Assembly: GCA_948144175.1 (NCBI GenBank)
Contig: CANXME010002190.1
Coordinates: forward strand, 62,001-126,000
DNA: 64,000 nt
Reading direction: 5' to 3'
From: Closterium sp. NIES-65
Taxonomy: Eukaryota; Streptophyta; Zygnematophyceae; Desmidiales; Closteriaceae
A program made the translations under genes and the position numbers. Shown in pieces: positions 33,905 through 63,536 of this stretch. The notes below the pieces were generated by a model. That model was not told the origin of the DNA. It searched no databases and saw only the letters and a program-made list of their open reading frames with translations. Each line of letters begins with the position of its first letter. Positions within the stretch are counted from its first letter, which is position 1.

Positions 33905-36900
33905 ATGGGCCAATCGCAGTCGCTATCGCTGGTCGAGGCGTCGGAGCTGATTCGCCAGCAACTCTCTGCTGACGTGTTCGTCTCCCATTTGCTCGCCGTC
34001 GAGCCGCACTCGTGGCGTCGCCCGCCATTACCGCACAGCGGACTAATAGTGTGCGAGGTGAGACCGATTTAAGACGCTGGTTAAAAACGCGCTGTGTTCT
34101 TAGTCGCCCGCCCTTACCGCACAGCGGACTCATAGTGTGCGAGGTACGACCGGTTAAAGTCCGTATTAGCAAACAATGTTGATAGGTTCTTAACCCCATG
34201 CCGTTGCCGCACAACGGACTGAAAATAGTTTTCAGAATGAGACGGATTTTTGGCCGTGATCAAAAAGGAAATGTGATGAGACGCATCCTAGCCGGCCAAC
34301 CTTACCGTAAAGTGGGCTGATAGTATACGAGGTGAGAGGTGGTTACTGAGTAGCCAACGGATGTCGTTAGATTGAACTGTAAATTCACGTCTGACTGAAC
34401 CTCTCCTATTCCCCCGTCCCTCTATCCCTCCCTTCTCTCCATCCTTCACCCCCTCCCCTCTCCCCCATCCCTCCCCCTCGCCTCTCTCCCCCATCCCTCT
34501 CCCCTAAAAAGGTAGAGGTGGATGAGCGCGGAGTCCCTGTGGCCTCCTCTTAAGATAGAGTCGACTAAAATACCACCTCCCTCTCCCCCTCTCCCCCTAA
34601 CAGGTGGAGGTGGATGAGCGCGGAGTGCCCGTGGCTTCCTCTAAGGACTACGTCCCCCCATCCTTCTCCCTTTCTCTCCTTTCCCCCCCCCATCCCTCTC
34701 CCCCATCCCTCTCCCCCATCCCTCTCCCCCATGCCTCTCCCCCATCGCTCTCCCCCATGCCTCTCCCCCTAACAGGTGGAGGTGGATGAGCGCGGAGTGC
34801 CCGTGGCCTCCTCTAAGGACTATGTCCCCACTGAAAGGTGAGCAGATTCCTTTAAGATCACTTTTGAGAGTTCCCAGATGGGTATTGTGTGGCTTCCTCT
34901 AAGGACTACGTTCCCACTGAAAGATGAGTGAGCAGATTCTCTCTCCTAAAAACACCTTTGACAAGCCTCGAAAATGAAGCCCATGGCCTCCTCTAAAGAC
35001 TATTCCCGCTCAAAGGTGAGCAGATTCCTTGTAACCCACTTTTGACAAGTGTTGAGAGAGTGAAGCCCATGGCCTCCTCTAACAACTATGTTCCCACTGA
35101 AAAGTCTTTTGAGCCGCCTCAAAAGTCGCCTCAAGAGGCGCCTCAAAACTCACTTTTGACAATTGTTGAAAGGGTGAAGCCCACGGCCTCCTCTAACAAA
35201 CAAACTACTATGTTCCCACTGAAAGGTGGGCAGATTTTGCTGGTTTCCTTTTTGAGATGCCTAAACCCTAACGCTAAGATCCCCTGAGCTCTTACCACTG
35301 AACTCCATTTGATACCTTTCCCTTCCCTTTGCAATGTCTTCAATCCAACCAGACCCGGCCGCAGTCAGCAGTTCCTGCTGCAGCCAATCACATGCCGGAA
35401 CGGGGCCAGCTGTCGCTTCTGCCACTCCCAGGGGTAGGTAATGGTGGAGTGCGGTGGGGAGAGGGTTTTGCCTCAGAGCAGTGCGGTGGGTGGGGGATGG
35501 GGTGGGGTATGGAGTGGGGGCATGCGATGGTGCAGGGTGGTGTTTAGGGATGGAGTATGGCATGGTGCAGTGCAGTGCAGTGTTTATGAGTTAAGATTTC
35601 TTTTCTTTCATGTCACAGTGCATTGCTTATTCCGATCCTTTCTCCTTCATTCCTTTGTCCCACCCACACTGACCGCACTTCTGACCTTTCCCTCGCCTTT
35701 CTCCCAACTTTTTCTGCAACACTGCAACATTAAACCTCATAGCTTCTTTCTGTTTCCTCGCTGCTTTGTGTGAAACATCACATCACATCACATCACATCA
35801 CATCATATCACACATCCAAACAGCTTCTCAGCTGCAGGAGGAGCGCTAGGATCTCTCCCTCTCTCCTCCTCCCTCCCTTCCCTACCAACCTCCACCCAAC
35901 CTCTGTCTTCCGACCCTGCCACTGCCAAACCTGCCGCCTCTGAACCTACCACCTCCGAACCTGCTGCCCCCAAACCTACCGCCTCCGAACATGCCGCCTC
36001 TGAACCTGCTGATTCCGAACCTGCCTCCTCCAATGCCAACACCACCAAGGACAGTGCAGGAGGCGGGGGTCTGGCGGATGAACACAGAGGGGAGGATTCT
36101 TCGTCTCCCCCCGTCCATGTTGACTCACTTCCTCTCCTCTCACTCCCTGAGTATGTCTGCTCGCTAGGCTCGGACCCTTCTGTTCAATTCGACCATGCAG
36201 CCCTCCCACCTGCCCTCCCACCTGCCCTCCCATCTGCCCTCCCACCTGCCCTCCCACCTGCGACATCTGGTAACCAGAAACAGCAGGGGCAGCAGCAGGA
36301 GCAGCAGCAGCAGCAGCAGCAGCAGGGGCAACAACAGCAGCAGCAGCAGCAGGGGAAGCAACAGCAGCAGCAGCAGCAGCAGGGGCAGCAGCAGCAGTGG
36401 ACGAGCCTTGCAGGAGCGGCCAATCGGTGCTTTGCTGTGAGAGCCAATAAGACTGCGCCACGTCTGCAGTACTGCCGCTGCCGCAGCCCCTGTAGCGAGG
36501 GTGGGAGATGCAACGAGGGAGGAGGAAGAAACGGAGTGAGTGGGAGCAGTAATGCCAGAACTGCCGTACCTAGCAAGTTGCCAGACCAATCTCCGAACCA
36601 GTTTCCAAACCAGAGCGGAAGGTCCGGAGCTTGCTGTGACGTGGAGTGGGCCGTGGCTGTTGCTGCCAGGCTGGCACCCAATCTGACGTGGACACATGCC
36701 TCTGCCAGGTCACTATCTGCTGTCGTGGCATCCCTATCTGTCCGGGAAGGGCTTGTAGCGGGTACCAGTGATGTGACTGTATCAAATGGCAGCACGCCTA
36801 TTGAAAGTATGACTATATTGAAGGCTGTAGAGCCTGTTGAGGCGGAAAAAGGGCCTCAGTTTAAGCACAGTGACTCTGACGGGGGGAGCTTTTCCTTCGG

Positions 36901-39822
36901 CACAAGTGGGGAGAGGGGAGAAGAGGGGAGGGAAGGAGAAGAGGGGATGGAAGGAGTGAGGGGTGTGGAAGGAGTGAGGGGTGCAGAAGCAAGACGAGAC
37001 AAACTCGCGGATCAACTACCTGGGAATTCACCTGAAAGCTCATCTGAAAAATCACCTGAGACTGAACAGATTGGAGTGGAGGGAGTGGAGGTCAGGTTGG
37101 GGGGAGAGGTGGGTGGAGGTGGTGAGATGGAGAAGAATGAGAGGACAGAGGGAGAGAATAAGAGGGAGGTCAGTGAGGGAGAGAAAGTGAGTGAGGGAGA
37201 GAAAGTGAGTGAGGGAGAGAAGGTGGGTGAGGAAGAGAAAGTGAGTGAGGGAGAGAAAGTGAGTGAGGGAGAGAAGGTGGGTGAGGAAGAGAAAGTGAGT
37301 GAGGGAGAGAAAGTGAGTGAGGGAGAGCAAGTGAGTGAGGGAGAGAAGGGAGAGAAGCCACAGAAGAGCCCGTCTTCGAAGCCTCCTCTTGCTCCCACTC
37401 CCTCCACACGCACAGCCACAGCCACAGCCACAGCAGCAGCAGCAGCAGGAGCGGCAGGAGGGGCAGCAGCAGCAGCAGCAGCAGCAGGAGGGGCAGCAGC
37501 AGCAGCAGAAGGTGGCAGTGACCTGGCTCACAAAACCCCCTCCCTTCGAATCTGGGTGCCTGAAGAGGAGCAGCAGCAGGAGACGCAGCAGCAAGAGCAG
37601 CAGCAAGAGCAACAGCAGAACTTTCAGCAGCAGCAGCAGCAGCACCAGGAGCACCAGGAGCAGGACGGAAAGTCTGATTTTCTACCCCTCTTATCACCCT
37701 CCTCCTCCCTTCCAGTCTCCCTTCCAGAATCCACCTCATCCTCCTCCGCTCTCCCTCAACTCACTTTGGACAACATCTTTTGTCCTGTAGCGGCGCTCGT
37801 CTCCACCGCCGCCCAACCTTCCGACCAATCAGGGACCACAATCTTCTTCCTCTACCCCTCCGTTCCCTTCACTCTGGCCGGCGTGCTTCGGCACAGCCCC
37901 GAGGCGCTACGAGACGAGTTTGCCGCCCGGCTGGTCGCGTTTGGATTCTTGCAGGGGGTGGCGGCAGCACATGCGCTGGGGATCTCCTGCGGGGCGGCAG
38001 TGCCGCCCAATATTGCGTTCTCGGCGAATCTGTGGCCGCGGTTGATGCTGGGAGGGGATTTTGGGGGTGGTTTAGAGGGGGGGGGGAGGGGGAGTAGGGG
38101 AGGGAAAAGGAGGGATTGGTGATGGTAGTAGGAAGAATAGGGCTGGAAGGCAGGTGAGAGGAGACGAAGGGAGAGGAGGAGGAAAAGGAGGAGAAGAAAG
38201 GAAAGGAGAGCAAAAGGGGCAAGACGCGGAGGTGATTTCGACAGGAGAGGGAGCCATGGCGAAAGGCGGGGACAAAGAAGATGAGCAGGAGGAAATTCTA
38301 AGGAAGCTTCCTCCTCCGCAGCGCGCACTTGCCGCGAAGCTTCCTTTCAGCGATCTCCTGGGCAGGTGGATGGCATGGGAGATCAGCAACCTGGATTATC
38401 TCCTGGAGCTCAACAGAATAGCGGGGAGGCGGAGCGGAGACAGGGATTTCCACGCTGTCATTCCGTGGGTGATTGATTTCACGGTGGCTCCGTTTGATAC
38501 CACCGCAGGTTCATTCACCGGGGGTTCATTCACCGGGCGTTCAATCTCTGCTTTTAATGTCTCTGCTTTTGATCGTACTGGTCCTGCTTCCGAGGCCTCC
38601 GTGGCTGTTGTGGCTTCTTCTGAGGGGGTTGATGCTGCGGGCTTGTTACCCAGGGACCTGTCTGTCGGGGTTGATGCTGCTGGCTTGTTACCCAGGGACC
38701 TGTCTGTCGGGGTTGATGCTGCTGGCTTGTTACCTAGGGACCTGTCTGTCGGTGATCTGATATCTGCGGATAGAGCAAGCGAAAGCTTTCCTCCTCTGCG
38801 TCCTGCCGCCGCTGCTGCTGCTGCTGGTGCTACCGCTACCAGTACTACTCTATCCTCCTCTTCCTCCTCCTCCACAGCTCCCCTCAAGGGTTGGCGGAAC
38901 CTGCGCTTAACTAAGTGGCGGGCGGTAAAAGGCGACGAGCAGCTCGATTTCACCTACTCGTCCTCCGAAGTCCCCCACCACGTGGCAGAAGAGTGTGTGT
39001 CTGACGTGGCAGTCTGCATGTACTCGGCTCGAAAACTCCCTCTGTGGATATTAAGGAGGGTGGTGAGGACGGTCTTTGAGCCTAAGGAGTATCCTAGTAC
39101 GATGGGGAGGATGTATAGGTGGACTCCTGATGAGACCCTGCCCGAGTTTTTTTTCGATCCTGCCCTGTTTCGGTCGTACCATGAGGGGCTGCCCGACCTG
39201 GCGCCTCCTGATTGGATGGATGAGTTTGCGGGCAGTGTGGGGGGAGCGGAGGTGGATGGAGAGAGAGGAGGGGAAAGAGGAGGGGAGGGAGGAGGGGAGG
39301 GAGGAGGGGAAGGGGGAGGGGAGGGAGGAGGGGAGAGAGGAGGAAAGGGAGGAGGAGTCAAATTTGAAAGAGATCTTTCTGGATCTTCAGATCCTGCAAT
39401 CATGATGGACGGCGACGATTTGATCCTGCGAATCAAATCCAATCGCGTCCATCGCTTCCTCGCCCTCCACCGGGCGGCACTAGAGGGTGATTTTGTCTCT
39501 TCTGAGCTGCACCACTGGATCGACCTCACCTTTGGCTACTGTCTCGCTGGCGACGCGGCATTGGCCGCCAAGAATGTGGTCCCGCCACCGACCAATGAGG
39601 AGGCGCCACGTGGACATGGGAGGTGCCAGCTGTTCGTGCATCCTCACCCGCAGAGGGGACCTAGACCAGCGGGGTTGAGTGGAGGGAGGGGAGGAGTTTG
39701 GGGAGGGAGAGAGATAGGAGGAGTGAGAGGAGGAATGGGGTTGGGAGGAGGTGGAAGAGGGGAGGGAGGGGAAGGTGGGAGTAACACTGCTTTGGACCAG
39801 CGAAACCCTGCTGATTCCCCCG

Positions 39823-39857
<35 letters not shown>

Positions 39858-42800
39858 TCCCCGTCTGCTACCACTCCATCCAGCCTCCCTTCTCCCTCTT
39901 TCTCCTCCCCCAGACCGTCACCACTCCCCACATCACCCACCCCTCTTCCCTTAACCTCCCCTCGCTCCCCCTCCCCCTCCCCCTCTCCTTCTCCCTCCCC
40001 CTCCCCCTCATCCCGTCCCCCCCTCTCAATGTCACGCACACTCCAGCAAGTGGAGGAATTTTCTCGATTCCTAGAATCCACGCGCCACCTGTCGCCCGTC
40101 TATTGGCCGCCGCCCGAGATCCTTGCCCCGCCTCCTGTCTCCCCCAGGGGTTACCGGAGAGGGGGGATGGGGTCTGCTGTTGCTGCTGCTGCTGCTGCTT
40201 CTGGTTCCATAGTTACAGCAAACCGACATCATATGGGGCAGGAGGAGGAAGAAACGGACAAACAAGGCACGTCCGCATCCTCGTCCTCTTCCTCATCCTC
40301 CTGCTCCTGCTGGGCGGAAGATATTTTTGTGGCCGGCTGCGTGATTGCGGAGATTTTCCTCCGCCGCCCGCTTTTCGACCCAGACTCAGCACACGTCTTC
40401 GCCACGGTCGGCAGTCTGCCGCCCGCTTTCTACAACCTGCCAAGCTCCGTGCAACCGGTGATCAGAGGCCTAGTAGACCGCAACCCCGCTCGCCGCCCGA
40501 CCGCTGCTACAGTCCTCGCTTCGTCCTTTTTCAGTCCTGCCGTCCGGTCGGCCCACTCGTTCCTCTCCTCGCTGCACTCCCTCCCGTTCCCGAGCCAGCG
40601 GCTCGCGTTCGCCGCGTCCCGAGCCAAGCAGGGAGGCTTGGGAACGAAGCTGCGGACGCACGCGATTGGCCGAAGCAGCAGCAGCGGCCGCAACAGCCGG
40701 GAGAGAATGGAGGGACTGAGAGACCAGGGGGGGGGAGACGGGAGGGTGATTCGAGAGGAGGAAGTTGCACTCTGGATGTGTGCATGCGAGGTGGTAACCC
40801 TGTTACAGCAGCCAGCTCTAGACCTCTCCGACCCTGCGGTTCAATCCCATATCACAGTGGTTCTGAACGGTTTGCTGCATCCCACTAGGGGTCTCGGCCG
40901 GAGGGCGATAGTGGCTCTGCTGGTGCCACTGGCAGTGCGAGCAGTGGAAGCTAATGAACCCAAGGGGTTGAATGAGATTGTGTTCGGTGAAGGGGTGTGG
41001 GATAAGCTTGCAATGGCTGTAGGGTTACCGGAGTATATAGAACGGCTGCATCCTTCTTTGCTCCGTTCGTCTCTCTTCTCCCTCCCCACCACCACCCCTT
41101 CTGCTTCCTCCGCCTCCTCCTCTTCCTCTTCCTCCACTCCTCCCATTCCTCGCCTAGACCGATCCCAATCCGCCGCACAGCCTCGGTCCGGACCTGTGTC
41201 CGCGGCTCGGGCCAAGCTCGGACTGCCTCGGTCTGGATCCGCGATCGTACGGTCAGGATCGCCCCCTGCGCTTCACGCCAGTCCGTGCCATGCGGCATCG
41301 ACGGCTCTGATTGAATCGGTGGCTCTGCTCCCTCTCCCCATCACTATCAGCCAGACAATTGCCCCTCTCATCGCTCACATCACCAGGGGACCCTTACAAC
41401 ACGCCTCCCACATTCAAGACCTCTTGATTGATATCGGTATGTCTTGCTTTGTGTGTCCACTCGTGAGGTGCTCTCTCTCAGTGGGGCCACTGCTGCATGC
41501 ACCACTGCAGCAGCACGGATCATACAACACGCCTCCCACATTCAAGACCTCTTGATTGATATCGGTATGTGTTGCTTTGTGTGTCCACTCAAAGGCTACC
41601 TCGGTGTTACTATAAAGCTCACGTCACCAGGGGTACTCTGCACCACGTCTCCCATATTCACCATCTCTTCATTCATATCGGTACGTCTTGCTTTGGAGAG
41701 GCAGCATAGGAGAATGATTTTTTCAACACACACAAGCTATTACTTGTTGTGCTCGTGTCTTCCCCTTCCCTTGTTGTGCTCGTGTCTTCCCCTTCCCTTT
41801 CCCTCTCTTTCCAGCTTCCAAGTTGGGAGAGAGAGCTACAAAGCGTCACCTGGTGCCCAGGCTACAAGCAGCGCTAGCGCAGCTTTTTCCTTTCCTCCCT
41901 CCCATCTCAACATGTCCTTTCCCTTCTTTTCTTCCTCCCCTCTCTTTCCAGCTTCCAAGCTGGGAGAACAGGCCTCAAAACGACACTGGGTGCCCAGGCT
42001 ACAAGCAGCGCTAGCGCACTGAAGATGAGTGAGGAGCAGCGGCAGGCGGGCGGGGGAATGGGAGCAAGAGGAGGAGCACATGCCATTTTGTCTGAACCGC
42101 TGCTTTCCTCCCTTGCATTTCCCTTCCTCCCTTCCCTTCACAGCTTCCAAGTTGGGAGAGAGGGCTACAAAACGGCACTTGGTGCCCAGGCTACAAGCAG
42201 CACTAGCGCACTTGAAGATGAGTGAGGAGCGCATGTAGAGAGAGCACATAGGCAGGAAGGAAGTCATTTTCCTTCTCGCCCTTCCCATGCCCCCTGTTCC
42301 AGCTTCCAAGCTGGGAGAGAGAGCATTGAAACGAGGTGACATTTGAGTCGACTCATAAGTCACCTCATTTCCCTTCTCGACCTTCCCATGCTCCCTGTTC
42401 CAGCTTCCAAACTGGGAGAGAGAGCATCGAAACGGCACCTGGTGCCCAGGCTACAAGCAGCACTAGCGCACTTGAAGATGAGTGAGGAGCAGCGGCAGCA
42501 GCAGCAGGGGCAGCAGGGGGCAGCGGGGAGGAGGAGGCGGTTGTTAGACGTGGGAGGGGACGAGCAGAGGCGGGAGCTTCTGGCGGGTATCCTTACAGAC
42601 GTGTACGACCTCTTTGCTATGGACGAGGTATGCTTGTGTGTTGGTGGAGCGCATACCCATACTTATGTGTGAGACTGCAGTGCAGAGGGAGCTCCTGGCG
42701 GGTGTTCTTACAGACATGTACGACCTCTTTGCTATGGACGAGGTACGTACGGTGCATGGGTTTGGTGTTCTAGGCAGCTTGAATAGCAGGGGGCAGCAGG

Positions 42801-45800
42801 GGCAGCAGGGGGCAGCGGGGAAGAGAGGGCGGTTGTTAGATGTGGGAGGGGACGAGCAGAGGAGGGAGCTTTTGGCGGGTATTCTCACGGATGTGTATGA
42901 TCTGTTCTGCATGGACGAGTTATGTGGGAGTGTGTATGTTGAACCCATGCCCATACTTGTATGTGGGAGTGTGTATGTTGAACCCATGCCCATACTTGTA
43001 TGTGGGAGTGTGTATGTTGAACCCATGCTCATACTTGTATGTGGGAGTGTGTATGTTGAACCCATGCCCATACTTGTATGTGGGAGTGTGTATGTTGAAC
43101 CCATGCCCATACTTGTATGTGGGAGTGTGTATGTTGAACCCATGCCCATACTTGTATGTGGGAGTGTGTATGTTGAACCCATGCCCATACGTCCATGTGA
43201 GACTGCAGTGCAGAGGAAGCTGCTGGGGGGTATTCTCACGGACGTGTATGATCTGTTCTGCATGGGCGAGCTATGTACTATGCATGTATGGGGATTGTTG
43301 CTTTCTTGCCGAAATGAAAAGCAGGAGGAGGTGGTTGTTGGATGTGGGAAGGGACGAGGTGGGGAGGGAGCTTCTGGCGGTTATCCTTACAGACGTGTAC
43401 AACCTCTTTGCTATGGACGCGGTTTGACTAGTGGCTTGCTTGGTCTTTTCGAGTCAAGGTATGTATGTACTATTGAGGCGCCTCGAGGTGTATGTACTAT
43501 GTAAAGAGATCGTTTTGAGGTGGCTTTTGAGTCGACTCAAAAATGTATGTACTATGTACAGGGATTATTTTTGTAGACAACGTGAAGAGAAGGGGCAGCA
43601 GGGGGCAGGGGGGAGGAGGAGGCACTTGTTAGATGTGGGAGGGGATGAGGGGAGGAGAGAGCTGCTGTCGGGTGTGTACGATAATGTTTTCTATGGTCGA
43701 GGTATGTTTACCGTCAAGGTCATTCCCTTGACGCCTCTCATTCTAAGCCAAACGCTGGGGTTGCCACACCACTGAGCCTTCTTGTTGAGTCAACTCAGAA
43801 ATCTCTCCCCAATCCCTTGCCCCTCCCCCCACATCTCTTGCCCCATCAGGGCAACGAGTCAGGACTCTGCCTTGACTCGAATAATTCTGAAACAGACTCT
43901 GGAATTGCCGCCACTGAGCCTTCTTCTGCTTCTTCACCTGCAGCAGAGGTATCACCAACAGCAGCAGCAGCGGCAGCAGCGGCAACTGCGGCTGCAGCAG
44001 CAGCAGCGAAGCAATTTGCAATCCACACGGTGACCTCTCCAGTCACTTCTCCTCCTCCTGCCGCTCCCACCGATTCAGAAGCTGTTGCAGCAGCCGCAGC
44101 CGCAGCCGCAGCAGCAGCGGCAAAGCGATTTGCCATTCACACTGTCACCTCTCCTGTCGATTCTCCTCCTCCTCCCCCTCCCACTGATCCAGAATCCGCT
44201 AAGAAACCTCCCTCATACCCCACAACTGCAACAGCCGCTACAGCCGCTGCTGACGCAACCAATGCTACTGCTATAGATGCTGAAGCTGCTGCTTCTACAG
44301 CAGCTCCAGCTGCTTCTTCTGAATCCCCCAAACTCGCCTCTAAAACAGGGAACTTATCTAAGCGTCTTGGAATGGTAGCAGCGGCTCTCACCCCCTCTTC
44401 TCTGCTATTAGACGGATTTGGTTGGTCCCTTCCCATGCCAACACTTAACAAGTCACCCTCTCACTCCCGCACAGTCAGCGCCAGCTCATCAGCGGAAGAT
44501 TCCAGGATGCTTCCTCCTGCCGGCGCCTCTGCTGCTGGTGGTCTCGCCACCACCGCCGCTGCAACCAGCAGCCAATCCTGGCTCTCCACGTCAGCCGACT
44601 CTTTGCCCGAGACTCACCCGGGCAGCCCAGAGGAAAATTCCTCCCTGCCCGAACCACCCGAGCCGTGGTTCTGGCTGCCCGAAAAACGTTTGGATGCCCC
44701 TCCGAATGAGGAGGGGTGGGACGTGGGGAGGAGGCTGGGGGGAGGAGGGGGAGGGGCAGGGGGAAGTTCAGTCAGCCTTGCCAGTATGAGCGCTGTTTCG
44801 TCTGTTTCTGGGGGAGGTGGCAGCTCGTGGATGGCTCGCGACAGGGAGGAGTCCCAGCCCGGGTGGCATCTGAATTTGTCTGTACTCAGATCCTGGGCGG
44901 CACACGACGGGCCTATTACGGGGATAGCAGTTCTGGAGAATGAAGAGGCATTTGTGACTATAGGGAGGGGAGGGTTATTGTCAGAGGGGAGTGGAGGAGG
45001 GGGAGGGGGGAGAGAGGGAAGAGCAGGAGGGGGAGGAGGACGGGGTGGGAGAAGCCGGGGAGGGGCAGGAGGCGGGGGAGGTGGAGAAGGAGGGGGAGGA
45101 GGAGGGGAGAGGGTTCGGGTGTGGGATGTGGGGTCAGGGGACTGTACTTTAGAATACTCAGGCCATTCCGAGGTTCCTCTTGCAGTGTGTGCGTTACAAG
45201 GCACCTCGTTAGTAGCAACATGCGACGAAGTAATCCACGTATGGGACTCTTCCTCTGGCGAGCTCTTATCTCTCTTTGAAGAGCCGCCTTCCTCTCTAGC
45301 AGCTCACCTCCAGCAGCAGCAGCAGCAGCGGGAGCAGCAGCAGCTGTACTCACACCACTCCTCCTCCACCCCCACACTCTCTGCTGCTGCCGCCGCCGCT
45401 GCCGCCGCAGCAGGAGCGGCCGGAAACCCCCTCGCGTACTTCTCCTCTTCCCCTCGCCTCGCCATGCCTATCGGCCAGCTTCCGGACCAGACCTCTTCTC
45501 TGGATCCCGCTGCTACATCCTCAATCTTCTCCTCTTTCGCCGCCGCTACAGGCGGAGTGGCAAGTGGGATCCCAGCCTCCCCTCGCATGTCCTCCTCTCT
45601 CTTCTCCTACCATCCCTTCTCCTCCCTCTCCTCTCTCTCCACCACTCCTCGATCCCACCCGTCCCCACACTCCCTCTCCTCGTCCGCCCTCCCGGACCTC
45701 GCCGGCCTAGGCTCAGGAGACGGCTCGGCGGGAGGCTCGGTTGGGACGCCGAGGCATGGGAGGGGGCGCAGCGTTAGCAGTCCCATGACTGTGTGTAGAT

Positions 45801-48188
45801 ACACGTCGCTGCTGTTCCTGGGGCCAGCAGGGGGGAACAGGCTCGTGGCCGGCACGTCTACAGGCTGCATCCGGTGGGTTTGCTGTGCTCTTTGCTGCAA
45901 CTTATCTGATATGTGTGTGCTGCTGCACGTGTGCAACTTATCTGATATGTGTGTGCTGCACGTGTGCAACTTATCCGATATGTGTGTGCTGCACGTGTGC
46001 AACTTATCCAGCTCGTCCTTTAAGGACACGTCACAATTGCAACACCGATCCTGTAGGGGATCGGTGGTTGGATCGCCTCTGGCAGTGCGGCCCATCAGAG
46101 CCGTTCTGCACGCCAGTCACTGCCCTCGCCTCTGCTGCCACCACCACCATCAACCCCATTACCGCTCCCCCTCTCCCCATTCCCACCCCCTTCCAGCCTA
46201 GTGGACATGTGTGCGGGTCGCTTGCTCTCCCTCTGGCAGTGCGGCCTATCCGAGCCATTCTGCACACCAGTCACTGCCCTCGCCTCTGCTGCCACCACCA
46301 CCTCCTCCTCCCACCACCAACCCCGCTTCTGCTCCCCTCCTCCCTCACCTCTGCGGTCTCAACCCATATTTCCCTTCTCCCCTCGTCTTCCCCTCCTCTC
46401 CCTGCCCTCTCTGCCCCCATCCCTCCCCTCATCCTTCTCCTCATTCCCCCCTTCCCTGCCTTGTAGACATGCGTGCGGGGCGTCTGCTCTCCCTCTGGCA
46501 GTGCGGTCTATCAGAGCCATTCTGCACGCCAGTCACTGCCCTCGCCTCTGCTGCCACCACCACCTCCCCTGCCCCCTATTCCTCCCCCCTACACATCTAT
46601 CCTTGCCAGCCTCGTGGACATGTGTGCGGGTCGGCTCCTCTCCCTCTGGCAGTGTGGTCTATCCGAGCCATTCTGCACCTCCCTGTTCCCCACTCCCCTT
46701 CTCATTCACTTTTGAGCCTACCTTCTTCCCAACCCCCAGCCTTGTGGACATGTGTGCGGGGCGTCTGCTCTCCCTCTGGCAGTGCGGTCTATCAGAGCCA
46801 TTCTGCACACCAGTCACTGCCCTCGCCTCTGCTGCCACGACCACCTCCTCCTCCCGCCGCTCCTCCTCCTCCTCCTCGCCCTCCTCCTCTTCCTCCTCTT
46901 CCTCCTCTGCCCACACTCGCTCCCCTGTTTCCACCAAGTGTGTTTCTGTGGGTTTCCACTCGGGACACCTAGCGTTCCTTGATTGGACGACGGGGATGGT
47001 GGTGGCACGGGTGAAGGCACACTCGGGGAGGGTTACAGGGGTGAGTGCTACGGCTTTAGATCTGGTTTCTAGGCGCCTAGAACTTGTAGTGTGCCTGCTT
47101 GTTTTTGGTGGTCAGAAATGTCTGGAACTTCCCAGTAACAATCGTCCTTTTCTCACGCATTTTGCCTCTGCTTTTTTACTTCCTGTCGCTTGTCTCACTC
47201 ACTTCTCAACCAACCAGCTCGTGCCATGTGGCGAGTATCAGCTTCTGTCCTCGTCCACAGACTCGACCATAGCCCTGTGGGATATCAGAAGGTATGCACT
47301 CTTTCACAAGGCGTTCATATACCCAATATTAGCCTCCTCGACATCCATTCTGATAAGCTGCTGTCCTCGTCAACAAACTCGACCGTAGCCCTGTGGTACT
47401 CACTCACCTTGTCATCAACTTCCATCCTTGTCCTGACTCGACCATGACGCTGTAATATTTTCAAAGGTGTGCACTTACCTACAGGGCAATCATATGCCCT
47501 ATATATGCCTTACTCATCCGCCCAACCCCCTTCCCTTCGCCCCACCCCCTCCCTTACCCTCGTCGGCCAATCCAGAGCTGCTGACGTGGCAGCAGTGGAG
47601 AGAGTGGTGGCTCACACACAAGGCATCACAGCAATGGTTGCGCTCACACCCACCATGCTCACGCCCTCATCTGGGGGAGGTACATCTGGAGCAGGCGGAG
47701 GGCTGAGCGGCGTGGGAGCGGATCTAATGCCTCCCAGCATGACCCTGGGCCGGGTTGTGATGACAGCAGCGGGGAGTCATATTGGCGTGACGAATGTCTC
47801 GGGATTGTCCCAAATTGCAAATGCTCGCACACGTGTCAAGTTCTCGAGCCATGAGCTTGTAGTTCGCTGGCCTCCTCCCCATTCGGTAAGCTTTGAGGTC
47901 TTAATTGTTACCCGCGGTTTCCTGCTTGTGACAATGCCTGTGTCGCTGTATCATTCTTTCGTTTTACTTCCATTGAGGTAATTTGGATCCATTCTCCTGA
48001 CATTTATCCCGCCGCTCCTCTTTGTTGGATTTCTCCACCAGGATGTCAATCTACAATTCCATGCACAACAAGTGATCGACAACATTCAATCGTCCAGGTC
48101 AACCCCCATATTTTCGTTGGATGTGCTTCCCTACTCTCGCCTCTTCCTTGCCGGAGGCGAGGATGGTATTGTTCGTGTTTGCAATTAG
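33905..48188 (+). CDS. GFS12-like kinase-BEACH-WD40 protein, 11 exons
   Basis: Proposed exons: 33905-34057, 34776-34837, 35353-35433, 35824 to about 38064, about 38150-41436, 42404-42627, 43850-45873, 46740-47040, 47218-47291, 47576-47885, 48042-48188 (TAG). All except the exon 4/5 border have GT-AG ends and join in phase. Roughly 2,900 aa, inflated by polyQ, polyA and glycine-rich inserts. Order: N-terminal region, degenerate kinase-like N-lobe (about 37750-38060), BEACH domain (RWMAWEISNLDYLLELN to VPPPTNEEAPRGHGRCQLF, 38380-39640), kinase-like C-lobe (DIFVAGCVIAEIFLRRPLF, RNPARRPTAATVL), helical region, then WD40 repeats (HDGPITGIAVLE, RVWDVGSGDC, STIALWDIRR, AGGEDGIVRVC). BEACH proteins act in membrane trafficking; Arabidopsis GFS12 is involved in vacuolar transport and effector-triggered responses. 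Several small exons have decayed duplicate copies in adjacent introns. The exon 4/5 splice is the least certain. Confidence 0.85.
34103..34335 (+). repeat. Decayed copies of the exon 1 3' end (BEACH gene)
   Basis: The last ~40 nt of exon 1 plus its GT donor (34016-34062) recur at about 34103-34145 (donor GTACGA), about 34199-34225 (donor lost) and about 34294-34337 (donor GTGAGA), all inside intron 1. Confidence 0.8.
34510..35230 (+). repeat. Ladder of exon 2 copies (BEACH gene)
   Basis: Exon 2 (34776-34837) has relatives at about 34510-34554 (in-frame TAA), 34604-34656 (no donor), 34889-34923, 34976-35015 (donor GTGAGC), 35060-35104 and 35175-35225 (donor GTGGGC). The shared core is GGCCTCCTCTAAGGACTATG with substitutions. 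Only 34776-34837 keeps acceptor, donor and frame together. Confidence 0.85.
35776..35812. repeat. CATCA pentanucleotide microsatellite
   Basis: Seven or so CATCA units in intron 3 of the BEACH gene, ending ten bases before the exon 4 acceptor. Confidence 0.85.
37168..37350 (+). repeat. 18-bp coding repeat (SEGEKV) in BEACH exon 4
   Basis: About ten units of GTGAGTGAGGGAGAGAAA with variants, in frame, encoding a charged SEGEKV repeat upstream of polyA and polyQ tracts. Confidence 0.85.
41521..41680 (+). repeat. Copies of the exon 5 3' end (BEACH gene)
   Basis: The exon 5 end ACGCCTCCCACATTCAAGAC plus donor (41399-41440) recurs at 41525-41564 (donor GTATGT) and, more diverged, at 41641-41680 (donor GTACGT). 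Confidence 0.85.
41815..42336 (+). repeat. Ladder of exon 6 5' halves (BEACH gene)
   Basis: Four copies of the exon 6 start, each with pyrimidine tract and AG acceptor, begin at 41815, 41952, 42144 and 42303 (the last truncated) before the apparently functional exon 6 at 42404. Core codons SKLGERATKRHLVPRLQAAL are kept in most copies. Confidence 0.88.
42676..43702 (+). repeat. Ladder of exon 6 3' halves (BEACH gene)
   Basis: The exon 6 end (GELLAGILTDVYDLFAMDE-like codons) recurs at about 42676-42742 (donor GTACGT), 42787-42920 (donor mutated to TT), 43200-43270 (donor lost), 43318-43423 (GTTTGA) and 43590-43701 (GTATGT). Confidence 0.88.
42921..43190 (+). repeat. 39-bp minisatellite, about seven copies, in BEACH intron 6
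   Basis: Unit TATGTGGGAGTGTGTATGTT followed by GAACCCATGCCCATACTTG; copies nearly identical, so recently expanded. It lies between two exon 6 copies. The related phrase at 42640-42670 shows it grew from intron sequence next to the donor. Confidence 0.93.
45890..46015 (+). repeat. Short tandem repeat in BEACH intron 7
   Basis: Four copies of a ~30-bp unit around TGCAACTTATCTGATATGTG and TGTGCTGCACG, starting 15 bases after the exon 7 donor. Confidence 0.85.
46050..46690 (+). repeat. Ladder of exon 8 5' halves (BEACH gene)
   Basis: Four copies of the exon 8 start precede exon 8 (46740). They lie at about 46070-46150, 46195-46320, 46465-46570 and 46608-46690, several with a (C)AG acceptor. Core codons GRLLSLWQCGLSEPFCTPVT are preserved. 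Confidence 0.88.
47329..47396 (+). repeat. Second copy of exon 9 (BEACH gene)
   Basis: Repeats the codons around LLSSSTNSTVALW 110 bp after exon 9 (47218-47291); the copy ends at a TGG|TACTC without a GT donor. Confidence 0.8.
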
Positions 48189-48646
48189 CAGCGTACAGAA
48201 ATGTTGTGAATGAAAGCATATTATTTTATTGGTGAAAGTGCAACAATGCCTCGAATTATGAAGTTAGGAAAAAAAATATCTGGTGGATGTGGTACTAAGT
48301 GTAGAAGAAAAGTTGCATTTCGGGAAAGGTGATTGAAACATTGTAGTTTTGAAACGTAAGCTGCTGAATTCTCAAAATATTTTGGCGCTTTGGTCGGTTG
48401 TTTTAAGTGTACAGTGCCTAGATATTTGCGTCTCTCTGTCACCAGGAAGCACCAATCTCGAGGGCGCGAACTGACAAGTCGCACGGAGCGGGCTTTTTGG
48501 CTACAAAGAGAGCGGGAACAGTTTCGAGAACGCCATCTCCTTTCTGTTGAGTTTTGCTTCTCTTTGAAGCCAGTTCAGCCGAGACAGCTGCTTCTGTTTT
48601 GAATCCAGTTCTGCATCGAATCCAGTTTACTCAGACAACTACGACC
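48189..48646. other. Intergenic, tubulin 5' region
   Basis: 458 bp between the BEACH stop and the tubulin ATG. Holds the BEACH 3' UTR (AT-rich, a run of A at about 48268) and the tubulin promoter and leader; nothing else seen. Confidence 0.6.
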
Positions 48647-50151: not shown

Positions 50152-51070
50152 TAACTGCTTGATTGCTTTCATGAAGGCTGGTGCACTAGTTCAGTTGCTT
50201 TTTAGCTGGTGAATATGACTCTTGTGTGAAGATGTTAGTAGGATTTAGCTCTCTTTACTACCATGTAGTGCTTACCTCTGTTGTACACTTGCTTAGTTAA
50301 CCATGTGATTCTCATTTTAATCTCATTAAAAACTCTCAATTCTCAAGAAAAACTTCAGTGCCAGAAGCCCAGAAGTGCAGACATAGCACATTACGAAGAA
50401 TGAAACGGCACAGTACGTAGCACTTATGCCTGTGATATGTACAGGTGGTTGTGCGGGCTTACTTTACTCAAAGATGTGCCTAAACTTGCCTTTCCACATT
50501 GTTGTCTGATGATATTTAGTAAGTTTTGATGGACATCTTATGTTGTGGTAGAGTTGGATTCTACATGTTCTGTTGTGGTTGCCTCAGGCATTTGTACCAG
50601 ACAGTTATCAGCAACTGTACGTTCTCTTATACCGAACAATTGAACCTTAAGTTGTCTAGCGAGTTGACAGTTGAATCGAGCACGATTATTGGTGGCGTGT
50701 CTACCTGCTCTCCACGTCGAAGATTCGGCGGGAGAGAAAAAACAACGGTAGAGATCTTCGTTCACCTCCGCCGTCAGCTTGCCCAGTTGAAGTCCGTTTT
50801 CCACGGAAGCCCTCGGTGCAGGTCCCTTGGTTGCCTTTCCGTGTTTGTGGGTGGGCGGGGAGATCTTGAAACAAGAAGTCTAGGGTTTCAGATTGTTCTT
50901 TTTGGTTGACGCTGCTGCTGTTGCTCCAGAGCGACATTCCCCCCCTCACCTTCAGACTAGTTTCTACGGTCTAGACTGCTAGATCCAAGTCAGGTCTCTA
51001 GGGTTTGTCACTTGTAGCGAGCAGCTTGGCGGCTCTCTTCCGCCATTCGATTAGCAGCTCCAGCCGCATA
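50152..51070. other. Intergenic between tubulin and cyclin genes
   Basis: Tubulin 3' UTR (AT-rich to about 50345) and the presumed promoter and leader of the cyclin gene. Only short ORFs without family resemblance. Confidence 0.6.
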
Positions 51071-52813: not shown

Positions 52814-57391
<4,578 letters not shown>

Positions 57392-58172
57392 GTGCTGCTG
57401 ATGGTGTTGAAGGTGACCAGCCAGCACTGTTGTTCCCCTCATAGTGCATTTTGGACACTGGCACATCAGCTTTTCCGTGTTCCCATCCCAAAAGACATCC
57501 ATTCCACTAACCATTTTCCAAGGACTTGCCTCCACCAATACATCCAGTGCCTGGTCTCATAAATGCGCCAGCAGTCTTCCACCTGCCCTTCAGCAGCTTG
57601 CCATGACCTGCGTGTGAGCAGATGTAGATTGGGTTAACCGCCACCATTTTGGATGCTCTTCCTTTTTGAGGAAAGTACTCTAGGACATTGGGTTAGGTTG
57701 CATACTGTTTCAATGCTGAGTGTATAAGAGTGGTACTTCGTTTGTGCCCCTGCCAATGTATTAGTGACCATCACGTTGTCCATATAAAATACTGTGGAAC
57801 TAAATGAGCACAACCTTGTGAATCTGGAAACCAATCAATATCTGAGAAGTCTAAAATCACATACAAAATAGTGGAGGTGTCCGTAGGAAGCGCGACGGAT
57901 ATCGGGGATCTCTCAATTGAGGGAGTAACGGTTACGTAATGATCTGACAACCTTTAATGATGATGGGTTTCCCCTTTCACTCATCAAAGACTGACGTCTG
58001 GAAAGCAGATCAAGCGTGCACCGTTTCCCTCGCGGAAACCGATCACGGGAAGAAGTACCGCCAAATTACGGACCTGAGTTGATTCTGTGGCTTCTGGAAG
58101 CTGAGGTTGACACCTCGGCTTCGTTGCTGTTCTCGCGGGTCGCTAGAGCTTGCTAGGCACAGGATTGAAGCC
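57392..58172. other. Intergenic between beta-amylase and AMMECR1 genes
   Basis: Beta-amylase 3' UTR and AMMECR1 upstream DNA; only short ORFs, no repeat recognised. Confidence 0.6.
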
Positions 58173-59370
58173 ATGGTTGGCGCGTGTAAAGAAATGGCGG
58201 TGTATTGTTTCGACAATCTGCTATCCCACTACAACGGTGACGATCCTCCTCCTCCCGCCTTCGAGGGTGGCCAATAGTAAGCAGCGCGAAATTTGTTTGC
58301 CGCTAGTTTGAGTACTATCGGCAAAGAAAAACGTTCCATTCTGATCGGTTTTCTGGGCTGTGTGAGTGTGCAGCCCACTATTTGTTACCTGGAAGAAAGT
58401 CTCGGATACTGGTGAGGCTCGGCTGCGAGGTTGCATCGGAACGCTCGAAGCTCGCTGTGTACTAACTGGATTTAAGGACTACGCGCTTACAAGGTATGAT
58501 TTCGCGAAACACCCACGTGTTTCCAACCCTTTAACGCCTCATTTCCTTTCCATCCATATCACACGGTGCAAATCTTCATGTTCTCGAAATTGTTCATGCA
58601 GTGCGTTAAGGGACCGCCGGTTTTCTCCCATACAGCCTCGCGAGATTGCTAATCTCCAAGTGACTGTTTCAGTTCTGACCAACTATGAGGTTGCGGTTGA
58701 TCATCTTGATTGGGATGTAAGCTTCTCTGCTCTGGGGCTCGTTGTTCAGGGAGAGCTATATGCCATCGTAATCTCCCTGTCTTCAAAATACAACAGATTC
58801 TCACACAAATTTACACGTGTATGGTATGGTTGCATCAACTTGCAGGTTGGCACACACGGAATGATTCTCGAATTTTTTGATCATCAAAACACAAAGAGAA
58901 GTGCCACTTATTTGCCAGAAGTCGCCCTTCATGAAGGTGAGTTCCTTTGCTGCTCTTCTCCTACCCCCTCCCCCCCTTAGTTCGTCCTTTCCGTATTCTT
59001 TGTCCCCATTCCCTCCTACTCTCTTCGTCCCGTTTTCACCCTTTTCCCCCTCTTTCCTTCTCTGACCATCCCTCTTTTCTCTCCCATCTTTCCCCTCACG
59101 GTTCTTCTCAGTTGTTTGCCTTCATATGTGCCGGGTTTTCTTATTAATTTCAACATGTTGAGCCCCTATTTATCTGCAGGTTGGACTAAGATTGAGGCCG
59201 TGGATTCTTTGATTAGAAAAGCTGGTTATAGCGGACCAATCACTGATGCACTCAGAAGAAAGCTTCGTGTGACTCGTTACCAGTCTTCCATCTTCACTCT
59301 CCACTATGAGGAGTATGTGGATTATGTCCAGAGGACAAGAGGCTACACTCCAAAAGTCTCAAGGTGGTAA
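58173..59370 (+). CDS. AMMECR1-family protein
   Basis: Exons 58173-58276, 58374-58493, 58602-58716, 58846-58936, 59180-59370, all GT-AG, phases correct, 206 aa. Starts MVGACKEMAVYCFDNLLSHY; contains the family hallmark RLRGCIGTLEA (residues about 50-60), ALRDRRFSPIQPREI, DYxxA-type YEVAVDHLDWDVGTHGMI and RRKLRVTRYQSSIFTLHYEEY near the end. The AMMECR1 domain is found from archaea to animals and plants; its biochemical role is not settled, and a nucleic-acid or scaffold function has been suggested. Normal length, no broken residues. Convergent with the REEP gene to its right. Confidence 0.96.
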
Positions 59371-59822
59371 CAATTTGAGCTTATCTTCTCAGCGCCCTTC
59401 TGTACATAATTTCTTCAGGCTGGCTGCGGAAACTGCACGCTGGCCATGCCTCATTCCTGCCTATTGTCTGGCCAGGTCATGTGTGGGTAGTGAAGGAGCT
59501 TTACAAACTCTTTGGAAGCTGCTTGGCTTCAGTACTTCCACATGATGAAGGGTGAAGGCGTTCGTAGAGGCTAGGATCTTTACCTTCAGTGTACCCTTCT
59601 CTTGTGGTTCAACCTTCAATATTCATCCACCTTGCCCCTCATGCCCCTGCTTTCAGCCCTGAAAATTCTGAAGTGAAGCTAGAGAAATCCAGCCATTGTG
59701 GTCTGCTAGCATTGTTACACAAATGTGCAATGCTGCTAGAACAATACCCCCATGCGAGGCACAATCATGAGCATTTTCATGAGAACAAGATTTAGAAACA
59801 CGCACGGGAAAGGAGCGGGATT
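59371..59822. other. Convergent 3' region of AMMECR1 and REEP genes
   Basis: About 450 bp shared by two 3' UTRs; no further gene seen. Confidence 0.6.
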
Positions 59823-61752
59823 TCATGTTTGAGAGGCCGCTGTACGGCCACGACGAAGGAAGCTAAACCCGAGAAAGCCACGTTGTTGGGCTGAATCACG
59901 ATCAGGCAGAAGAACTGTTTCTTCCCCACCCTCAGTGGCATATTCCATGCTTTGCTCCTCCTCCACATAACTTTCAGTGCCTGACTGTCCTTGGTCAACA
60001 TCAGCAACCTCTTGTGGTGCATCTAAATGTCTTGAGGTGTGCATGACATGTGTGCCAACCAGAGTGCTATCAGGAGCACCAGTCATCTGCAAGCAAGGGA
60101 AACGAGAAATAGCGAGCAGCTCCGTGGAGGCGATTGGGGGTTTTGGGGCTAGAGTCAAGACGATAATATGCTGCCAATTTGATTGTGAAATCAACTCACC
60201 ATCTGCTGCCACTGCTGCTGCTGCCTCGCCTGCTGCCGTTGCTGCTGAGCTGTAGCCACTGCTGCTGCTTGGGCCGAAACAGCAGTCAGGTAAGCGATTG
60301 TTTCATCCACAAACCCCTGCATGTATGCCGATACAACAGTTTGCAACTGGCTCACTACATCACTCACACGCCCCTTGATTTCATCCACCTGTTTGTCAAT
60401 GTCTTCCTCGTTCTGTAACAGCACTGGCTGCAGCAGGTTGTTGTAAACGTGGTCTGTGCCTTTGTTGTCAGGGTACCAGAGGTAAATGACCAGAAGCAGC
60501 TTCGCCTCTGGATACATAGGCAGCCTGTCCAGTACACAGAATATGTTTAGAGGGGTAAAAAGGAATGGATACAATTAAAGCGGCACATTTTTGTCTCATT
60601 GGCCAAAAAAAAAAAAAAAAAAAAAAAAAAACCCATGGTTGCCCTCCGTATGTGGAAAAAATAAACCCCATAAGCTTGGAAAGTGGAAAGGTTCTCACAA
60701 GATGTGAATGAGTGGGTTGGGGCAACTGGCAATGTCTGACCAAGATGGCTTTCCTGCACAAATGCTTACCGTTCCAGTATGGGGTCAGCCAGGCGCTCTG
60801 TGACTGTAACGAGGGCAATGAGTACCCTGAAAGAAGCGGGCGAGAAGCATATGCGGGGAAGTAATGGCCAAGAAACATATGTTTTTGGCAGAATGAAAAG
60901 CATTACATGGTTGCACAATAAAAGGTACGAATCACTGGTGTTTCCTGGTTATGCAGGTGGAGCAGATGATAAGCATGGACAGGAATGGAAGGGACTCGCA
61001 TCAGAACTGAGGTGTGTTCTGAGTTGACACTCATTGGTGTTTCCTACAATGGCAGGTGGAGCTGATGACGAACAGGAAGACGAATGCAAGGGACTCGCAC
61101 CAGAACTGACAGAAGCATAGCAGCTCCTTGACAAGCTGGTCATTGAGACTTTTCAAAAGGACAGGGGGGATGAGAAGGACTCGCACCAAAACTGGCAGAA
61201 CCATAGCAGCTCCTTCACATCAAGCCGCAGCTTCCTGATGGCTTTGAAGCAGAGATAGCCACGTGATAAAAGAGGGCTTTTGAGACGTCTCAAAAACACT
61301 CTTTTATAACAGGGATAGAAGAAACTCGCACCAGAATTGGCAGAACCATAGCAGTTCCTTGACGTCCGGCCGTCGCTTCCTGATGGCTTTGAAGCAGAGG
61401 TACGCTGGATAGAGATACCCGAAGATCAGCCTGCTTTGGATCGGGCATGAAGGGAACGGAGAGAGGACGGTGAGAGGGCGGTGAGAAGAATGTGGCGTTC
61501 AGATTAGACATGAGGTCAACTAGGAGTCGAATGTGCCTTATCCGTGATCCGTGATCAGTCAGTGGTCAAGCAATTTGGTTCATCACCACGCGACCACGAC
61601 AGGGATCGGTTGCGAAGCCTTTTGCGAAGCCTATTGCGAAGCCTATTGCGAAGCCTATTGCGAAGCCTATTGCGAAGCCTATTGCGAAGCCTATTGCGAA
61701 GAACGGATTCCAGCACGTACGTCAAGAACTGCAGCAAGGCCGGTGGAAGCAT
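59823..61752 (-). CDS. REEP/HVA22 (TB2/DP1) ER-shaping membrane protein
   Basis: Minus-strand exons 61752-61721, 61430-61326, 60826-60770, 60524-60200, 60086-59823; 260 aa, phases correct throughout. The first exon gives MLPPALLQFLT, joined to LIFGYLYPAYLCFKAIRKRR, a classic REEP start with hydrophobic hairpin. Next come FWCEVLIALVTVTERLADPI, LPMYPEAKLLLVIYLWYPDN and KGTDHVYNNLLQPVL, the TB2/DP1/HVA22 signature. A helical region, a Gln/Ala-rich stretch and an acidic tail follow. Such proteins wedge into the ER membrane and curve tubules; plant HVA22 members are often stress-induced. The donor of exon 2 is a weak GA|GTTTCT and the exon has three decayed copies in intron 2. Intron 1 holds a 12-bp tandem repeat and intron 3 an A29-type run (60604-60631). 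Exon 1 is assigned by frame and similarity, so it is less certain than the rest. Confidence 0.88.
60946..61245 (-). repeat. Ladder of REEP exon 2 copies
   Basis: Parts of exon 2 (61326-61430) recur at about 61180-61258, 61070-61135 and 60955-61015, each around the codons for ELLWFCQFWCE (TGGCAGAACCATAGCAGCTC on the plus strand). The nearer copies keep more of the exon. All lie inside intron 2. Confidence 0.85.
61609..61701. repeat. 12-bp tandem repeat ATTGCGAAGCCT, about 7.7 copies
   Basis: Five perfect and three variant units in intron 1 of the REEP gene, starting 19 bases after its donor. The unit is a multiple of three, so it is open in several frames, but no coding role is supported. Confidence 0.93.
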
Positions 61753-62060
61753 GTGGGACGCTCCGCAACGATCTGTTAAGCCTTCTGCGAAGTACGGATT
61801 TTAAGCTCCAACGCGTTCGTGACAGCCCGTGCTAGAGTGCAAGGCTTTACGGCTCTACAACAGCCCGTAATATGTGACGTGATGACGTGTGCTAGAAAGA
61901 GCAAACGAGGCTGCGGCGCGGAACACGAGCCGTAGAAGAAGCACTTGCAGCAAAAAGCGTGGCAAGGAAGGTTGACAAAGAAACGGATGATTCTTTATGT
62001 CTGGAAAGCTTTGCATTCACAAACAGGTTTCGCACACAAAAGGAGAGACGCGGAAAAAGC
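61753..62060. other. REEP upstream region
   Basis: About 300 bp between the REEP start and the tRNA gene; presumed promoter and leader, no motif assigned. Confidence 0.5.
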
Positions 62061-62132
62061 GCCGCCCGTGGGGCTCGAACCCACGACCACAAGGTTAAGA
62101 GCCTTGCGCTCTACCAACTGAGCTAGGGCGGC
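62061..62132 (-). tRNA. tRNA-Lys (CUU)
   Basis: 72 nt on the minus strand, no intron. Acceptor GCCGCCC pairs with GGGCGGC; D-arm GCTC/GAGC; anticodon stem CAAGG/CCTTG with loop CTCTTAA giving anticodon CTT; T-arm GTGGG/CCCAC with GTTCGAGCC B-box. CCA is not encoded, as usual for a eukaryotic nuclear gene. The body is nearly that of plant nuclear tRNA-Lys(CUU). It overlaps no gene; the ATG of the next gene is 80 bp away on the other strand. Confidence 0.98.
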
Positions 62133-62211
62133 TGTTTCATGGATTGCTATTCTAATAAAAACCTTTTATTGTGTTCAGTTCCACCATTCTTGCTTCTGCT
62201 TTGTTTATCAA

Positions 62212-63014
62212 ATGGCTTTATCAACCACATGGGCATGGCCTCAGTGCAAATGTGTCCCTCGTCTTGCCCCACCCGTTACAGTCACGGTGTTTCCCCGCAA
62301 TGCCAATGACAGGCGTCGAATCAGGGCGACTGCGAGTAGCGCGGGGAAGAGCGGAAGGGGAAGCGCAGGGGGACGCGGAGGGGGAAGAGAGAGGAAAGGG
62401 GGGGATGCGGAGTGGGTGACAGGGGGTTCGTGGTTTGAATTTGATACCGATTCCCTCGCCGTGACGTCAGCTCCGCCCGACGATGACGTCAGCCTGACTG
62501 GCGATGCCCCGGACGCGTCTCGGCCGTCGGATCCGGAACTCAGCGCCAGTCCCTCTGCGGGGGAGGCGCGGGGCTCTGGGCGGCAAGATCTGTCGGATGC
62601 GGGAGGCTCAGCGACAACGTCGGCGGCTGGAGGGCGGCTGGGCGGCAGGCTGGGCGGACAGCGCGGCGGCAGGACCGGCGGGGACCGCGGCGCACGGGGC
62701 GGGGGGAGGAGCGGGAGCTTGAAAGACGCGGAGCTGGCGGAGATAATGGCGGCGGTCAGGCGCGCGGACGCGGGGGGAGGAGAGGGGGAGGGGGGGGAAG
62801 TGTGGGGGGGAGATTTGGGGGCGAATGGCGGAAGAGATGGGGGGGTGGGGGACGTGGAGCGAGTGAGAGAGGTGCATTTTAGTGGATGCATAAATGAGTC
62901 TTATGCTATAAGCTACAGGCGGGGGGGAACGGAAGAGGAGAGGGGGGATGGTGGAGAGAGGGGTGGGAAAGGGGGAGACGGAAACCTGAGGACCATCTTT
63001 GTTAAAGTGAACAG
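62212..63014 (+). CDS. Unrecognised, possibly plastid-targeted protein, first exon
   Basis: ATG 62212 opens an ORF to a donor AACAG|GTGAGA at 63014. The first ~45 residues (MALSTTWAWPQCKC to RRIRATASSAG) are Ser/Ala/Arg-rich with no acidic residue until later and a plausible processing site, as in chloroplast transit peptides. Then come glycine/arginine-rich low-complexity segments, an acidic DDDVSLTGD stretch, LKDAELAEIMAAVRRADAGG and VREVHFSGCINESYAISYRR. No known family was recognised. The last ~150 nt are repeated in decayed form downstream, as in the BEACH and REEP genes, so further exons probably lie beyond the window. Confidence 0.5.
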
Positions 63015-63039
63015 GTGAGAGGAGGGGGGGAGGAGGGGG

Positions 63040-63441
63040 GAAGGTGGAGCGCGTGAGAGAGGTGCATTTCAGCAGGTGCGTGCATTGATGAGTTGTACAC
63101 TATAAGCAGGTGCGTGAAGTGAGGGTGTTTTTTGAGACGTCTCAAAAACACCCTCATTTCAGCAGGTGCATTGATGAGTTGTACGCTTTAAGCTACAGGC
63201 GGGGGAGAATGGGAGGGGAGAGGGGGGACGGTGGAGAGAGGGATGAGAAAAGGGGGAGACGGGTGCCTGAGGACGGTCTTTGAAAAAGTGAACAGGTGAG
63301 AGGAGGGGGGGAGGGGGGGATGGTGTGTGTGGGGCGTGGGGGGCGTGGGGGGCTTGGGGAGAAGCGAGATAGGGGAAGGTGGAGAGAGGGGTGGGGGAGG
63401 GGGAGATGGGGGGCTGAGGAAGGTCTTCGTTAAAGTGAACA
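63040..63441 (+). repeat. Ladder of exon-end copies after the terminal gene
   Basis: Segments of 62855-63016 recur at about 63042-63112, 63156-63300 (ending AAAGTGAACAG|GTGAGA) and 63370-63445 (AAAGTGAACAG|GCGAGA, donor mutated). Landmarks are GTGAGAGAGGTGCATTT and GCTACAGGCGGGGG. Confidence 0.85.
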
Positions 63442-63536
63442 GGCGAGAGGAGGGGGGGAGGAGGGGGAGAGGTTGGGGCAGTCCCCTTTTCTCTGCATAT
63501 GAGGAGGCAAGTATGCCCAACCCACGTGACACGTTC

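Follow-up and report, generated by a model that had tools for sequence, protein, structure and literature searches.

The nuclear genome of Closterium contains a family of palindromic insertions that are only about 18-60 bp long, of which thousands share an invariant centre. The window, that is, the whole stretch of DNA that was analysed, comprises 64,000 nucleotides of Closterium sp. NIES-65 (assembly GCA_948144175.1, contig CANXME010002190.1, positions 62,001 to 126,000 of the forward strand; C1892:62001-126000). A preliminary description of the window had noted hairpins with changing but self-complementary cores between duplicated exon fragments, and had linked them to the process that duplicates exons. 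That interpretation is partly supported.

Members of the family in the window

The DNA of the window is nuclear and belongs to Closterium. Its content is eukaryotic, including retroelement frames, a tRNA-Lys and BEACH, AMMECR1 and HVA22 domains, and the retroelement gag region was 58-96% identical to at least 120 Closterium proteins among the matches listed. Matches to a GFS12-like (kinase/BEACH/WD40) protein from Closterium sp. NIES-68 span 36383..48185 on the plus strand.

Eight places had been listed originally, and the sequences described were present at all of them. The 18-mer pattern, with up to three mismatches allowed, matched the window 7 times; 100 shuffles averaged 0.19 matches and never attained that number. 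The window was also scanned for near-perfect stems with a loop of up to 10, using three Markov shuffles as a control. The top three hairpins of the whole window were family members (61266-61307, 63115-63161 and 42328-42371) and the shuffles gave none; the fourth hairpin, 32198-32241, is outside the family. When a 34-position consensus was applied, five members scored 37-52, above all 100 shuffled windows, for which the maximum was 34. These matches are located at 35106-35132, 42333-42366, 43517-43542, 61275-61295 and 63124-63155. Thus, five of the listed places stand out by sequence. The other three are weaker: the one at 35131 is part of a compound element (35103-35152), and those at 43473 and 43785 scored 23 and 24, respectively, which is chance level on sequence alone. 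The near-perfect hairpins were confirmed, although their arms are longer than described: those of 42334-42365 measure about 16 bp, those of 61263-61310 measure 24 bp and those of 63115-63161 measure 23-24 bp. The suggestion that every copy has a self-complementary core fails at 35107, where the core is CCGC, as the earlier listing itself shows. A search of window positions 33000-64000 against Rfam at gathering thresholds returned only a tRNA at 62060-62132 and no known RNA family for the palindromes.

Direct copies at the edges of the insertions

All five strong members, designated A, B, C2, D and E, abut direct copies of 22-91 bp on both sides (inserts and copies are given without strand). 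Insert A (35103..35152) is a compound palindrome with the cores CCGC and GCGC, flanked by a left copy of 64 bp (35039..35102) and a right copy of 72 bp (35153..35224) that differs from the left one by an 8-bp indel. Insert B (42334..42366), with the core TCGA and arms of about 16 bp, lies between two 68-bp copies; the left copy (42266..42333) is a truncated fragment of an exon in the GFS12-like gene and the right copy (42367..42434) runs into the full exon copy. In C2 (43511..43543), which also has the core TCGA, the left arm exceeds the right arm and the copies are 22 bp each (43489..43510 and 43544..43565). Insert D (61258..61311), with the core ACGT and arms of 24 bp, has copies of 91 bp at 61167..61257 and 61312..61402. 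Insert E (63105..63154), also with the core ACGT, is bounded by copies of 40 bp (63065..63104) and 36 bp (63155..63190), and the last 7 bp of its hairpin lie in the right copy. The reading frame adjoining E gave no scoring match in a protein search. There are also weak members. C1 (43471..43488; core GCGC) has 9-bp copies on either side and a sequence at chance level, and a possibly decayed member at 43784..43800 borders a diverged direct repeat. Two others, also possibly decayed, occupy duplication junctions at 34558..34579 and 61141..61158.

B, C1 and C2 fall within the GFS12-like span, in the gaps between exon matches. In the NIES-68 protein, the segment beginning at residue 1689 is present once, whereas the window matches it at 41814, 41951, 42143 and 42403; B sits just upstream of the 42403 exon match, next to the truncated piece. 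Across 41801-42434, the exon start is present in several tandem copies and the palindrome is absent from most of the junctions. Two more short-unit tandem arrays, at 63527-64000 and 42920-43190, are without strong family palindromes.

The flanks of A, B and E, when joined with one copy and with the palindrome removed, align across both edges to a neighbouring sister unit, and to judge from these alignments the sister units would serve as empty sites. For C2 and D, no sister unit aligning across the joined site was found.

The window alone does not prove the association with flanking copies, because random positions within its arrays equal the flush scores of the five members in 15-90 of 285 cases. 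Flush repeats are frequent at random positions too (17-20%), and the flank scores of the five members are equalled at 1-10% of random positions. Among close duplicate pairs of the window, 31 passed the complexity filter in a search that missed A and C2. Palindromic filler was present in four (B, D and E twice), and the remaining 27 had filler scores of 6 or less or no filler. At other duplication junctions, a weak member (p below 0.05) was found in 5 of 23, of which one (43471) is circular, the junction being defined by the palindrome itself.

In stretches sampled from the genome, isolated exact palindromes had flanking repeats in 22 of 25 cases, compared with 250 of 1500 random positions, so the proposed tie between the hairpins and a process that duplicates neighbouring pieces is borne out. 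When the edges were restricted to 12 nt, the contrast dropped to 16 of 25 against 198 of 1500. The sample consisted of twenty 10-kb stretches around listed places, all from the first contigs of the list. Among the members in these stretches, flanking repeats accompanied 46 of the 52 exact ones, 24 of the 33 with one mismatch and 13 of the 24 with two, whereas 19.5% of 600 randomly chosen positions had them. The loci of a second set were centred on ACGT members; repeats flanked 20 of the 28 members there, some of which have other cores. Given the excess at isolated members, the "exon copies" beside the palindromes look like long target duplications made together with the insertion. The preliminary description placed the palindromes between exon copies; it is more accurate to say that they sit flush between direct copies of whatever DNA the site contained, 13-117 bp of it, and specificity for exons is not supported.

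The possibility was considered that flanking copies are a general property of palindromes. A general scan identified 48 palindromes, of which 37 were assigned to the family, 33 of them having flanking copies, and 11 were placed outside it. Four family variants and one simple repeat among these 11 have copies. The remaining six, which are true non-family palindromes, have none, and the idea was rejected on that basis.

Abundance and core types

The pattern TTTTGAG-NCGN-CTCAAAA (TTTTGAGNCGNCTCAAAA) was counted in the NIES-65 assembly (874,075,685 bases in 2400 contigs). It occurs 24,964 times, a total that includes tandem arrays and near-identical contigs, independent insertions being fewer. The reversed pattern, used as a control over the same 874 Mb, gave 0 matches. 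As an example of near-identical contigs, C347 and C1658 agree across 1.1 kb at one locus, and the L019 locus is present on three contigs. A chance origin of the family was rejected on the window shuffles, the hairpin scan, the consensus scores and the genome count relative to its control.

The core TCGA accounts for 13,080 matches, GCGC for 5,851 and ACGT for 5,047, while the other 13 NCGN cores together contribute 986. Three self-complementary types therefore make up 23,978 of the matches (96%), far from the chance frequencies that would have spoken against the original interpretation. In the sample, the 54 cores of TTTTGAG-NNNN-CTCAAAA were TCGA (25), ACGT (13), GCGC (10), AATT (3) and three that are not self-complementary. 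The core types look like marks of a few subfamilies.

A viral or prokaryotic source was also considered. There were at least 120 prokaryotic pattern matches, and a self-complementary core was present in 20 of the 80 whose cores were typed; viral contigs had 11 matching stretches, two with such a core. Both sources were rejected, the matches being scattered and at chance expectation. No such elements were described in the titles and abstract openings searched, a search outside which most subscription journals fall, and the string "palindrom" is absent from the available main text of a paper on Closterium genome size (PMC10407611).

Anatomy of isolated insertions

An ungapped method was used to delimit 30 isolated insertions, 26 from the sample and 4 from the window. 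The set leaves out clustered members, members near locus ends, edges beyond 22 nt and insert D, and the method places the edges of A and E differently from the flush-copy analysis. By this method, the duplications are 13-117 bp long (median 30.5) and the inserts 19-61 bp, and the two copies are identical in 7 of the 30. The arms are unequal and the outer ends ragged on both sides, while the centre is invariant. Inspection by eye showed that TTTTGAG is preceded by GGTGAC in TCGA members and often by CACGTG and a variable 12-mer in ACGT members, giving half-sites such as GGTGAC-TTTTGAG-TCGA and CACGTG-n12-TTTTGAG-ACGT. The outer-arm sequence ends at different points on the two sides, and in members that retain both outer arms these largely match each other. 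The best case, L032:4603, is a perfect 52-bp palindrome between identical 19-bp copies.

No base preference indicative of a target motif was detected at the 60 outer duplication edges of these insertions, a small sample. Unpaired half-sites were not in excess (44, with 39.9 expected), and thus inserts without the centre were not seen. The same count gave no evidence for the excision footprint that had been put forward as one explanation. Microhomology at the edges averaged 0.46, compared with 0.34 by chance, over 26 arms; ends primed by microhomology were discarded as an explanation, the value not being clearly above chance.

In the ACGT subfamily (for example window 61263-61310 and L032:4603), the outer arms often terminate in CACGTG and GACGTC lies at the centre, sequences that we take to resemble the plant G-box and C-box sites. 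Elsewhere, the palindrome and its flanking copy are repeated in tandem, at L017:7990-8138 (period 37 bp), L020:1439-1651 (53 bp) and L031:6176-6302 (42 bp), which has the look of a minisatellite that grew from an insertion. At L020:7343-7483, there is a 20-bp tandem repeat of half-sites (GACTTTTGAGGCACTTTT) without a palindromic partner.

Age and presence of the insertions

Between the two arms of the five window members there are differences at 7 of 82 sites, and between their flanking copies at 24 of 280 sites; the numbers are small, and the arms had been delimited by their pairing. With arms and copies equally diverged, the palindromes look as though they were born near-perfect and then decayed; this fits an origin together with the duplication. 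From member to member, divergence of the arms did not correlate with that of the copies (Spearman 0.31, p 0.61), and their equal divergence gave no sign of continued hairpin repair. Compensatory evolution, one of two explanations that the preliminary description had offered for the changing cores, is not supported, as the arms decay like the copies.

Near-identical contigs were compared at three loci, and no empty site, which would have shown mobility directly, was found. The site was filled on 3 of 3 contigs at L019:3337, on 3 of 3 at L017:6805 and, as judged from gaps between matches, on 2 of 2 at L032:4603. In a comparison of L064 with L065 and L066 (contigs C6, C1658 and C347), the palindrome was present on all three contigs; C1658 and C347 match over 412 bp and C6 over 375 bp, and there is a further partial duplication beside the palindrome.

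Discussion

The insertions fit no transposon class tested. A transposase is expected to leave precise ends and a duplication of fixed length, and a retrocopy one precise end. The family might be a tiny hairpin RNA retroposed by a LINE-type reverse transcriptase, with target-primed reverse transcription producing variable target duplications, but we regard this as unlikely. LINE and SINE retrocopies do have target duplications of variable length, as do the Closterium inserts, with a median near 30 bp, and the high copy number (24,964 cores) would also be accommodated. However, such copies have a constant 3' end or tail, whereas both outer ends of the inserts are ragged where one fixed 3' end would be expected, and no tail was seen. 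A nick-site motif would also be expected, yet the duplication edges, few as they are, have no base preference.

A minimal MITE or foldback DNA transposon, with a transposase that recognises the palindrome, is less probable still. The inserts resemble these elements in being palindromic and non-coding, and they are multicopy, with subfamilies that have different cores. The ends of MITEs and foldback transposons are precise and their target duplication has a set length, while in Closterium the duplication ranges from 13 to 117 bp, the arms are variable and the outer ends imprecise. Moreover, within 264 kb no larger spacing of half-sites was seen to recur that would mark them as termini of larger elements.

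Nearest in form are mitochondrial GC clusters, which, together with the hairpin elements of other mitochondria, are short multicopy palindromes like the Closterium family. Yeast mitochondrial GC42 is a 42-nt multicopy palindrome, and the GC clusters and DHE/RHE hairpin elements are held to be mobile in the accessible text of two papers (PMC4478555, PMC2800124). According to the same portions, GC clusters are flanked by AG or ACT only (PMC4478555) and the mitochondrial hairpin elements of Allomyces have no duplications (PMC2800124). The mitochondrial elements are organellar, whereas the Closterium family resides in nuclear genes and has 13-117-bp copies, a fixed centre and ragged ends. Introners are likewise dispersed in genes, in diverse eukaryotes according to the available part of PMC9860276, but the 18-bp Closterium core is without intron borders.

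It is very improbable that the inserts are ordinary filler from break repair or template switching, with no element family and with hairpins arising independently at duplication junctions. Similar duplications at staggered breaks in plants have reportedly been studied by Schiml and by Vaughn and Bennetzen. As excerpted, PMC8355091 describes small tandem duplications made by fill-in at the ends of staggered breaks, and a direct duplication of the break region is what the Closterium insertions show. Small tandem duplications free of palindromes are common nearby, and breaks in yeast gain inverted templated insertions of 5-34 bp (PMC11724301, in the part consulted). The filler of such repair is absent, local or drawn from unrelated donors, however, while the Closterium junctions hold one abundant sequence family with its 24,964 exact cores. 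A single template switch can create a perfect stem, as stated in the portion available of PMC8794818, but hairpins of that origin copy local sequence and the Closterium centre recurs genome-wide. Furthermore, palindromes outside the family are without flanking copies, one simple repeat excepted.

That older palindromic sites are simply carried in tandem arrays and adjoin copies through array growth is scarcely credible: arrays of palindrome and copy do exist, with periods of 37, 53 and 42 bp, and 27 of the 52 exact sample members lie in clusters or arrays, but the sister units of A, B and E are colinear even though they lack the palindrome, and flanking copies persist at 22 of the 25 isolated members.

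The family is probably explained by insertion at a staggered break, with the same half-sequence added to both ends or with capture of self-annealed DNA. We infer a break, a two-ended addition and a joint at the tetramer. The insertion would occur at staggered breaks, and fill-in of the overhangs would generate the target duplication. Both broken 3' ends would gain an identical half-sequence ending in a self-complementary tetramer (TCGA, ACGT, GCGC or AATT), and the two tails would anneal at the tetramer and be filled in, giving a palindrome whose centre always survives. In an equivalent version, a short self-annealed or hairpin DNA would be captured and its ends trimmed. Two results speak against this mechanism: edge microhomology, which template-primed ends would be expected to show, does not clearly exceed chance, and presence/absence differences were not seen at the three loci compared. 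The exon pieces duplicated around a palindrome would then be target duplications, preserved wherever one side still has an intact exon. The tiny mobile element suggested at the outset comes close to this reading, that is, short palindromic insertions between target copies. More tentatively, and with considerable doubt, the family may represent mobile DNA of a class that is characterised by its centre and not by its ends. The palindrome would be remade at each insertion, the same templated half-sequence being added to both ends of a staggered break and the two joined at a self-complementary tetramer. Spread across the genome, such a class would contribute substantially to the tandem duplication of exons and introns and to the birth of minisatellites in Closterium.

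If the staggered-break reading is right, a noncoding sequence of about 18-60 bp has reached thousands of nuclear sites, each insertion duplicating tens of target bases. A fixed centre with free ends is the opposite of what the tested transposon classes have, and suggests a new way of making inserts. The insertions would also leave a mark, recognisable by its sequence, on the events that give rise to small tandem duplications, partial copies of exons and minisatellites, whose origin is usually studied from unmarked scars.
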